A stretch of 64,000 nucleotides of DNA from Pseudomonas putida (GTDB taxonomy: Bacteria; Pseudomonadota; Gammaproteobacteria; Pseudomonadales; Pseudomonadaceae). The notes under the pieces are model-generated. The model did not search any database and was not told where the DNA came from. It saw nothing but the letters and a program-made list of their open reading frames with translations. Both the position numbers and the translations under genes were made by a program. Positions 27,232-38,343 of the stretch are shown here, piece after piece. The stretch's first letter is position 1, and every line of letters begins with the position of its first letter. The stretch spans positions 6,076,001 through 6,140,000 of the forward strand of contig NZ_CP039371.1 of assembly GCF_005080685.1 (NCBI RefSeq), in the 5' to 3' direction.

Positions 27232-27417
27232 TCGCTGAACGGTTCAGCGATCGGGTGTGGAAACCCGGCAATTCAACATGATGACTGTCGTCATGACAGC
27301 TGTACGCGGGAGGCCTCGGGCCTACCGGGTTTATCATGTGCCTGGTTTTCCACCCCGTGTACAGCTGTCACCCCAATGTGTGGAAACCGAGGGGTGGCAC
27401 ATGAACTACATGGTGCC
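27232..27417 (+). other. dense array of stem-loops with a three-way-junction core (candidate structured RNA or leader)
   Basis: Consecutive perfect or near-perfect hairpins fill this stretch: 27232-27250 (TCGCTGAA arms), 27252-27267 (CGGGT/ACCCG), 27281-27294 (ATGAC/GTCAT), then a long 16-bp stem (GACAGCTGTACGCGGG at 27295-27310 with 27354-27369, one mismatch) that encloses two inner hairpins (27311-27323 and 27324-27346), followed by CACCCC/GGGGTG (27369-27374 with 27391-27396) and GGCAC/GTGCC (27396-27400 with 27413-27417). The motif GTGTGGAAACC appears twice (27255, 27378) and GGTTTTCCAC once inverted (27344). The last hairpin ends four bases before an ATG with no Shine-Dalgarno sequence. 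Function unknown. Confidence 0.6.
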
Positions 27418-37170: not shown

Positions 37171-37193
37171 CTGGGGCCGCTTTGCGGCCCCAG
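37171..37193 (+). terminator. stem-loop terminator after ntrC
   Basis: CTGGGGCCGC and GCGGCCCCAG pair perfectly across a TTT loop, 23 bp after the stop codon, with TCGTTTC after the stem. It separates ntrC from the small RNA promoter. Confidence 0.85.
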
Positions 37194-37211: not shown

Positions 37212-37226
37212 GCACCGATGTTGTGC
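37212..37226. promoter_or_regulatory. NtrC binding site upstream of the NrsZ-type RNA
   Basis: GCACCGATGTTGTGC fits GCAC-N7-GTGC exactly. It lies about 98 bp before the -24 element of the next sigma-54 promoter. Confidence 0.8.
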
Positions 37227-37309
37227 TGCGCGCACCCCGCGAAGGCATAAATCCCCTCAAAAGCCGGCCAAATCACCCGCAAACGCACTGTTTACGGGGT
37301 TTTCAAAGT

Positions 37310-37324
37310 TGGCACGCCACCTGC
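37310..37324 (+). promoter_or_regulatory. sigma-54 promoter of the NrsZ-type RNA
   Basis: TGGCACGCCACCTGC matches TGGCACG-N4-TTGC with one mismatch and has the GG-N10-GC spacing. The nearest plus-strand gene, trmL, is over 500 bp away, so the transcript is probably non-coding. Confidence 0.85.
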
Positions 37325-37335
37325 AATAAGTACTG

Positions 37336-37450
37336 TATCTCCAGTTTTGGGGGCCTCGGTACAGGCAGGCCGGGTGAACCCCCCTTTTATTCGCGGTAAT
37401 GCAGTTTTGGGGACCTCGGTACAGGCAGGCCGGGAATCCCCTCTTTTATT
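37336..37450 (+). ncRNA. nrsZ: NrsZ-type nitrogen-regulated small RNA, two tandem modules
   Basis: Two near-identical modules of about 52 bp (37342-37393 and 37402-37452, period 60) each begin CAGTTTTGGGG, share a 21-base identical centre (37354-37374 and 37414-37434), and close with a C-rich strand and TTTTATT. In module 1 GGGGG pairs with CCCCC; in module 2 GGGGA pairs with TCCCC, a compensatory change that supports the stem. The sigma-54 promoter ends 12 bp before the RNA, with an NtrC box upstream. In P. aeruginosa the NtrC- and sigma-54-dependent NrsZ RNA lies immediately after ntrC and is built of repeated stem-loops. Location, control and modular build all agree. The 5' end is predicted and the 3' end overlaps the stop of the minus-strand gene. 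Confidence 0.8.
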
Positions 37451-37883
37451 CGTGCAGCCTCACCTGCACACGCCAACGCCCAGCGTCCTCTGCACCGGCC
37501 CACTCGCCGTGCAGGGGACGCGCGGCAACCACCGTCAGCAACAACCCCTCTTTGCTCTTGCGCAGTTGCCAAGCGACCGGCTTGCCCTGCAGGTCGAGCT
37601 GACCGCGTTGTACCTTGCCCTCGGCCTCGAACAGCAGCGCCACGGTACCTTCCACGTTTTCGCCATGCAGCTTGGGTTGTTCGTTGAACCACAGGTCCAG
37701 GCCGTCCTGCACGACCGCTATCTGTTCCAATACGCGCTCTTCAGGCGCGGTCAGGCGGCCGATCATCAAACCCACCAGCATCCCGAAAATAGCCAGCGAG
37801 AACAGCACACGCGGCCAAGCCTTCGAACGCTCGTCCGGTTCGAGGGTAGAATGCTCGTCATCTTCACGCTTGGAGCCGTGCAT
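37446..37883 (-). CDS. hypothetical single-pass inner-membrane protein
   Basis: 145-residue protein with a charged N-terminus, one membrane span (VLFSLAIFGMLVGLMIGRL, about residues 25-43) and a periplasmic C-terminal part that includes LQGKPVAWQLRKSKEGLLLTVV. I do not recognise a domain. Its ATG (37883) shares two bases with the ATG of the divergent trmL, and its stop lies within the end of the NrsZ-type RNA, so it could be affected by antisense transcription from both sides. AAAGGATG upstream of the ATG may serve as ribosome site. Real coding is supported by normal composition and a clean start; function unknown. Confidence 0.7.
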   Translation of the reverse strand: MHGSKREDDEHSTLEPDERSKAWPRVLFSLAIFGMLVGLMIGRLTAPEERVLEQIAVVQDGLDLWFNEQPKLHGENVEGTVALLFEAEGKVQRGQLDLQGKPVAWQLRKSKEGLLLTVVAARPLHGEWAGAEDAGRWRVQVRLHE

Positions 37884-38343
37884 GTTTCACGTCATCCTTT
37901 TTCAACCAGAAATTCCGCCGAATACCGGCAACATCATCCGCCTCTGCGCCAACAGCGGTTGCGACCTGCACTTGATCGAGCCGATCAGTTTCGAGCTGGA
38001 CGACAAGCGCCTGCGCCGCGCCGGGCTGGACTATCACGAGTATGCCACGCTCAAGCGCCACGAAAGCCTGGCCGGATGCCTGGAAAGCCTGGGCAACCCG
38101 CGCCTGTTCGCCTTCACCACCAAAGGCTCGCATCCCTTCCACGAAACCGCCTACCAACCGGGGGATGCTTTCCTCTTCGGGCCAGAGAGCCGCGGCCTCC
38201 CCGCCGAGGTGCTGGACAGCCTGCCGGCGGAGCAACGCCTGCGCCTGCCGATGCGGCCCGGCTGCCGCAGCTTGAACCTGTCCAATACCGTGGCGGTGAC
38301 GGTGTACGAGGCGTGGCGGCAGAACGGGTTTGCCGGGAGTTGA
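37882..38343 (+). CDS. trmL: tRNA (cytidine(34)-2'-O)-methyltransferase TrmL
   Basis: SPOUT-class methyltransferase (153 aa) that modifies the wobble base of tRNA-Leu isoacceptors. It starts MFHVILFQPEIPPNTGNIIRLCANSG and has the knotted SAM-binding end FLFGPESRGLPAEVL and MRPGCRSLNLSNTVAVTVYEAWRQ. GGAG lies at proper distance before ATG 37882. The start codon overlaps that of the minus-strand membrane-protein gene by two bases. It ends at a shared terminator with secB. Confidence 0.95.
   Translation: MFHVILFQPEIPPNTGNIIRLCANSGCDLHLIEPISFELDDKRLRRAGLDYHEYATLKRHESLAGCLESLGNPRLFAFTTKGSHPFHETAYQPGDAFLFGPESRGLPAEVLDSLPAEQRLRLPMRPGCRSLNLSNTVAVTVYEAWRQNGFAGS

Follow-up and report, generated by a model that had tools for sequence, protein, structure and literature searches.

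A two-module NrsZ-family small RNA locus downstream of ntrC in Pseudomonas putida, and the range of module number across the genus

The interval between ntrC and ORF145

The window analyzed here is a stretch of 64,000 nt from Pseudomonas putida (contig NZ_CP039371.1, positions 6,076,001 to 6,140,000, forward strand). It carries ntrC, an assignment that we take from its sequence together with the glnA-ntrB-ntrC gene order, followed by a convergent open reading frame of 145 codons (hereafter ORF145) that is the positional counterpart of PA5126 and beyond which lies trmL (Table 1). Direct reading and scripts place in the intergenic stretch between ntrC and this convergent ORF an NtrC-type box, a sigma-54 promoter and two hairpin modules with a period of 60. 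Each of these elements had been noticed in a preliminary description of the locus, and each holds up at the tabulated positions: the GCAC-N7-GTGC box is indeed exact and the -24/-12 promoter near-consensus, the tandem modules fall within direct repeats (37342-37387 and 37402-37447) that are 85% identical over 46 nt at a spacing of 60, both modules are followed by TTTTATT, and the stems differ by a compensatory change, the innermost pair of the lower stem having switched between G-C (module 1) and A-U (module 2).

Two further elements of the interval deserve a more guarded description. The terminator-like hairpin immediately 3' of ntrC probably separates that gene from nrsZ; the chance expectation for such sites in the region is 0.9, which makes the hairpin weak evidence when taken by itself. 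The second half-box downstream of the exact one is no better than chance, as a best score of 6 was also reached in 131 of 257 shuffled controls. At the far end of the interval, ORF145 and trmL are divergent genes whose start codons overlap (CATG, window 37881-37884), and the one-base offset between their match starts is seen again in many other loci.

Table 1. Features of the nrsZ locus and its neighbors (window coordinates)
Feature	Position	Strand	Basis and remarks
ntrC, 478 aa	35711..37147	+	Open reading frame; two other Pseudomonas genomes have homologues along its length (92 and 97% identical)
Terminator-like hairpin 3' of ntrC	37171..37193	+	Terminator scan: 10 pairs, 9 of them G-C
NtrC-type box GCACCGATGTTGTGC, exact GCAC-N7-GTGC	37212..37226	+	Direct reading, 8/8; its first base lies 98 bp before that of the promoter match
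Weak second half-box, 6/8	37232..37246	+	20 bp further on
Sigma-54 -24/-12 promoter TGGCACGCCACCTGCA	37310..37325	+	11/12 specified positions match
Predicted NrsZ transcript, ~115 nt	37336..37452	+	Rfam RF02695 match starts at 37337
Module 1 hairpin	37349..37383	+	Fold; loop ACAGGCAG at 37361-37368; module model R1, 61.2 bits
TTTTATT after module 1	37385..37391	+	Direct reading
Module 2 (terminal) hairpin	37409..37441	+	Fold; loop ACAGGCAG at 37421-37428; module model R1, 69.7 bits
TTTTATT after module 2	37444..37450	+	Holds the complement of the stop codon of the convergent ORF
Convergent 145-aa ORF (ORF145)	37446..37883	-	Ends inside the last T tract; stop codon 37446-37448
The R1 model was built from 40 sequences, both window modules among them.

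The promoter elements recur well beyond the window. We examined 257 loci, namely 197 from a genus-wide sample and 60 from named relatives, of which 15 are present twice, so that 242 are distinct. Considering only sites with GG-N10-GC, all 257 have a sigma-54 site of score 9-11 (out of 12) in the 90 bp that precede the first loop, as opposed to a score of at least 9 in 1 of 257 base-shuffled controls, which preserve single-base content only. An NtrC-type box matching at least seven of eight positions is likewise found within 200 bp upstream of the sigma-54 site in 202 of 257 loci versus 15 of 257 shuffled ones, and an exact one in 82 versus none. The window's own 11/12 promoter and 8/8 box support, at the level of sequence, the NtrC/sigma-54 control put forward in the preliminary description; the prediction is that, under nitrogen limitation, RpoN polymerase transcribes the locus together with phosphorylated NtrC. 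According to the reviews PMC8395346 and PMC9308961 (excerpts), P. aeruginosa produces NrsZ when nitrogen is limiting, in a manner dependent on NtrB/C and RpoN.

NrsZ family membership and module number

A covariance-model search, one of the checks proposed at the outset, matched the locus to the Rfam NrsZ family RF02695 at 82.8 bits against a cut-off of 76.9 (E 7.8e-19). The alignment spans the length of the model and past 37452 crosses ORF145, where the pairing is poor; we take this third-module portion to be spurious and the score to rest on the two modules. Within the same genome the next best match to the family model reaches 12 bits (E 2.25), and a one-module model that we constructed returns two matches at E up to 10, both of them at the nrsZ locus. 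The neighborhood is equally characteristic: ntrC, ORF145 and trmL follow one another around the locus in the window, all three were detected in 140 of 200 loci, and ORF145 and trmL in 39 more. Both modules present the exact loop ACAGGCAG, which is named as the NrsZ motif (PMC9308961, excerpt). By its sequence the locus is a member of the NrsZ family, and the earlier assignment to the NrsZ type therefore stands, with the family score above the cut-off and with place, promoter type and loop motif in agreement with the P. aeruginosa RNA (PMC8395346, PMC9308961; excerpts). Within that family the window's nrsZ is an ordinary member, and two is an ordinary copy number.

NrsZ has been studied in P. 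aeruginosa, where it comprises three modules; among the titles and opening lines of abstracts surveyed, no study of the P. putida RNA is evident. Within the family, one genome with an RF02695 score of 259 bits carries three modules behind the same promoter type at spacings of 89 and 80, compared with 60 in the window. A likeness also exists to PrrF1 and PrrF2, duplicated small RNAs that are similarly tandem copies of one regulatory RNA unit; these are, however, listed in the reviews as two separate RNAs, whereas the NrsZ modules stand behind one promoter and presumably in one transcript. With P. aeruginosa NrsZ the window's RNA shares the intergenic place on the ntrC side, NtrB/C and RpoN control (predicted here) and the motif ACAGGCAG, but it differs in length, the former measuring 226 nt and the latter, with its two modules, a predicted ~115 nt (PMC8395346, PMC9308961; excerpts). 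We also count as a difference that module 1 of the window ends in TTTTATT like the last module. With the NrsZ loci of the P. putida group, on the other hand, it has in common both the kind of promoter and the TTTTATT tail after module 1; neighboring modules in this group are spaced by 57-64 in 49 of 50 pairs, and their number varies from one to four among 58 named loci (26, 16, 14 and 2, respectively).

NrsZ has been termed highly conserved among pseudomonads (PMC8395346, excerpt). In our sample of 199 Pseudomonas genomes, the window's included, RF02695 finds a match (E at most 0.01) in 197, with 132 scoring above the cut-off; the remaining 65 loci are all 60 one-module loci plus five with two modules, and annotation by the RF02695 cut-off would miss every one of them. 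As for the two genomes that yield no match, the contig stretch of one (G157) breaks off 192 bp beyond ntrC and yielded no trmL; the other (G037) has ntrC and trmL in place and a fragment like the right half of a terminal module, and appears to hold a decayed NrsZ remnant.

Script and model searches together give 485 modules in the 197 loci, with one to eight per genome: 60 genomes carry one, 39 two, 67 three, 19 four, 7 five, 1 six, 3 seven and 1 eight. Three is thus the commonest count and two is common, which is how the proposed comparison of module number across Pseudomonas came out. The loop is exactly ACAGGCAG in 484 of the 485, the sole exception (L086) having one base inserted, under a script that allowed two loop mismatches and required at least four of the five loop-adjacent pairs. 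An exact motif at position 885 of L184 failed the stem test and was left uncounted, as was a motif 673 nt off in L085; L199 and L200, with weak second matches and no module, were excluded, and the count of four for L213 is uncertain owing to a run of N between its modules. Model searches alone give 479 matches, since overlapping 43-nt copies in L075, L084 and L100 were merged. These last three are compact arrays of four or five modules with a period of 43-44, each T tract leading directly into the stem of the following module.

What the survey adds is that a single hairpin forms the unit of NrsZ, with a loop that hardly varies among Pseudomonas genomes and a copy number of one to eight, a genus-wide range that we consider a useful addition. 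The natural one-, two- and many-module versions allow the effects of tandem copies on dose, stability and target choice to be tested directly.

Across the wider family, the window's genus included, 94 of 148 genomes gave a match (E at most 0.01), and 14 of 19 genera were represented among them. Twenty stretches from other genera were inspected, and 18 of them contain a hairpin with the ACAGGCAG loop or a one-base variant of it; the same script found no such hairpin in L282 and L283. L280 and L281, both from one other genus, have TCAGGCAG as their loop, ntrC and trmL being adjacent and a sigma-54-like site preceding the loop. Two genomes of other genera (L273 and L275) contribute a second NrsZ-like hairpin, in whose stretch none of ntrC, ORF145 and trmL was detected; the loop variant ACAAGCAG and a sigma-54-like site are present in that of L275, and that of L273 has no sigma-54-like site by the same pattern.

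Stems, T tracts and the history of the second module

The folding energy of the locus is no better than that of shuffled sequence (z 0.27 for the whole and -1.52 to 0.38 for single modules) and is thus uninformative, so that the case for structure rests on comparison. For the upper stem, we chose 40 diverse modules from 203 distinct ones: over its six pairs 98.8% of cells are paired, compared with 88.9% after shuffling, a figure that leans upward because the script used for finding modules required at least four of five pairs beside the exact loop and hence most of the pairs being scored. Double changes occur in five of the six pairs, and the covariation score is reached by none of 500 shuffles and is lower in all six slid registers; for further pair types, one of five measures, 8 of 500 shuffles reach the observed value. 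The lower stem, which played no role in module finding, has all five of its pairs formed in 195 of the 203 distinct modules, as against a mean of 154.8 and a maximum of 167 for shuffled arms. The stems, in short, covary around a near-invariant loop, a combination to be expected of a loop with a pairing partner elsewhere.

The T tracts speak to a different aspect of the locus. Across the genus sample, four or more T residues in a row come after the terminal module in 128 of 136 multi-module loci and the only module in 60 of 60 single-module ones, and ORF145, whose homologues were detected in 179 of 197 loci, has its stop codon inside this terminal tract in 159 of the 179; the A within TTTTATT is there because the stop codon lies in the tract. 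Such an arrangement would suit hairpins that serve mainly as tandem terminators, shielding ORF145 and trmL from readthrough, with the conservation of the loop being incidental. We regard this explanation as improbable: a terminator needs neither a near-invariant 8-nt loop (484 of 485) nor a sigma-54 promoter of its own (257 of 257 loci), the T-run is mostly missing from internal modules (of 136 first modules in the genus sample, genomes of the P. putida group included, 34 have it, and of 150 middle modules 9, making 43 of 286 in total), and a scan for consensus terminators listed neither module hairpin, TTTTATT following both. Far less credible still is that the modules are a REP-type dispersed intergenic palindrome that landed behind ntrC by chance: a repeated hairpin in an intergenic stretch is what such an element would look like, but no other place in the genome matches the module model up to an E of 10, and the same neighbors and a conserved promoter are seen at loci throughout the genus.

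In the P. putida group together with the window, the T-run of at least four is found after 32 of 33 first modules and 6 of 18 middle ones, which marks the window's TTTTATT after module 1 as a trait that first modules have in this group. We infer that this copy is a relic of a duplicated terminal module. The tract after module 2 is probably the 3' end of the RNA, and the one after module 1 may possibly act as a site of early termination or processing. As to the 3' end running antisense into the neighboring gene, the overlap that the preliminary description pointed out is real and conserved but trivial in extent: it amounts to some 5-7 bases because the stop codon of ORF145 lies inside the second T tract.

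To place the second module in time, we turned to 60 named relatives, found through ORF145, which carry one to four modules (26, 17, 15 and 2 loci, respectively). The tree has 60 rows, the window and 59 relatives (L218 is absent, there being no ntrC match in its shorter record), and was built from flanking genes with the sRNA itself left out. The tree is a quick one and leaves 13 of its 57 forks open. On it the deep branches of the P. putida group consist of 23 one-module loci, and the window pairs with its nearest relative, the two-module Pseudomonas sp. S31, with a support of 100, the pair sitting within a clade of twos, threes and a four. Since the deep branches have one module, the two of the window are most simply a gain, through tandem duplication within the P. 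putida group. Deeper in the group L210, L212 and L215 have one module again, which looks like loss, so that module number would go both ways. The P. putida RNA had originally been described as reduced to two modules; in light of a genus range of one to eight, the frequency of two (39 of 197) and the one-module deep branches, that word is probably wrong. A reduced NrsZ would imply an ancestral three-module array from which one module was lost in the window's lineage, a history consistent with three being the commonest count in the genus (67 of 197) and with the two outgroup rows on the tree, one of them on a long branch, which carry two and three modules; yet all 23 deep-branch loci have a single module and would call for several parallel losses, and we think this course of events unlikely. 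Three records titled Pantoea sp. Ap-967, Pantoea sp. Cy-639 and Paucimonas sp. (L206, L210 and L252, respectively) fall within the P. putida group and look mislabeled.

Proposed mode of action and target searches

We propose, with a probability of roughly 0.85, that the locus encodes a two-module NrsZ behind a sigma-54 promoter and an NtrC-type box, which is transcribed under nitrogen limitation and acts in trans as an antisense regulator through its loops. The RNA would start near 37336, about 12 nt past the GC of the -12 element, and end near 37450, in or just after the second T tract, and a one-module RNA of ~55-60 nt might arise from transcripts that stop, or are cleaved, behind module 1; it would resemble the functional first-60-nt piece of the P. 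aeruginosa RNA. The exposed loops would then pair with messenger RNAs, with each module constituting one complete regulatory unit and module number setting the number of loops per transcript, that is, dose rather than a new function. P. aeruginosa NrsZ is, in the excerpts at hand, a ~226-nt RNA that is processed, with a functional species made up of the first 60 nt, and it activates rhlA (PMC8395346, PMC9308961). Because that short species is reported to be functional and because 60 of 197 genomes carry a single module, it is plausible that one module could work as a free regulator, as the preliminary description had suggested (PMC8395346, PMC9308961; excerpts). A further excerpt reports that NrsZ was enriched with Hfq more strongly in planktonic cells than in biofilms, a difference that is not significant (PMC6890931).

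A more speculative extension, which we offer tentatively, is that NrsZ forms an evolvable dosage array: a self-contained hairpin copied one to eight times behind one NtrC/sigma-54 promoter, with the first copy in the P. putida group having its own terminator, such that the mixture of short one-loop and long many-loop RNAs would set the strength of the nitrogen response.

As a candidate target we tested only phaG, a homologue of rhlA; the P. putida genome contains a phaG homologue with 87% identity to the query. The region upstream of it contains no complement of the loop and pairs no better than shuffled sequence does, 75 of 500 shuffles pairing equally well. Genome-wide, the 9-nt loop complements CTGCCTGTA and CCTGCCTGT occur at 49 and 79 sites, respectively, in overlapping lists that include the nrsZ locus itself, and among the 60 sites examined (30 per version, out of 128 listed) only one lies near a plausible start codon. 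Read backwards, the same letters occur only 17 and 12 times, respectively, and codon bias may lie behind the excess of the forward versions.

Elsewhere in the window, positions 27289-27375 of the plus strand match a second Rfam family, the C4 antisense RNA (RF01695), at 63.9 bits against a cut-off of 45; this family is known from phages and plasmids.
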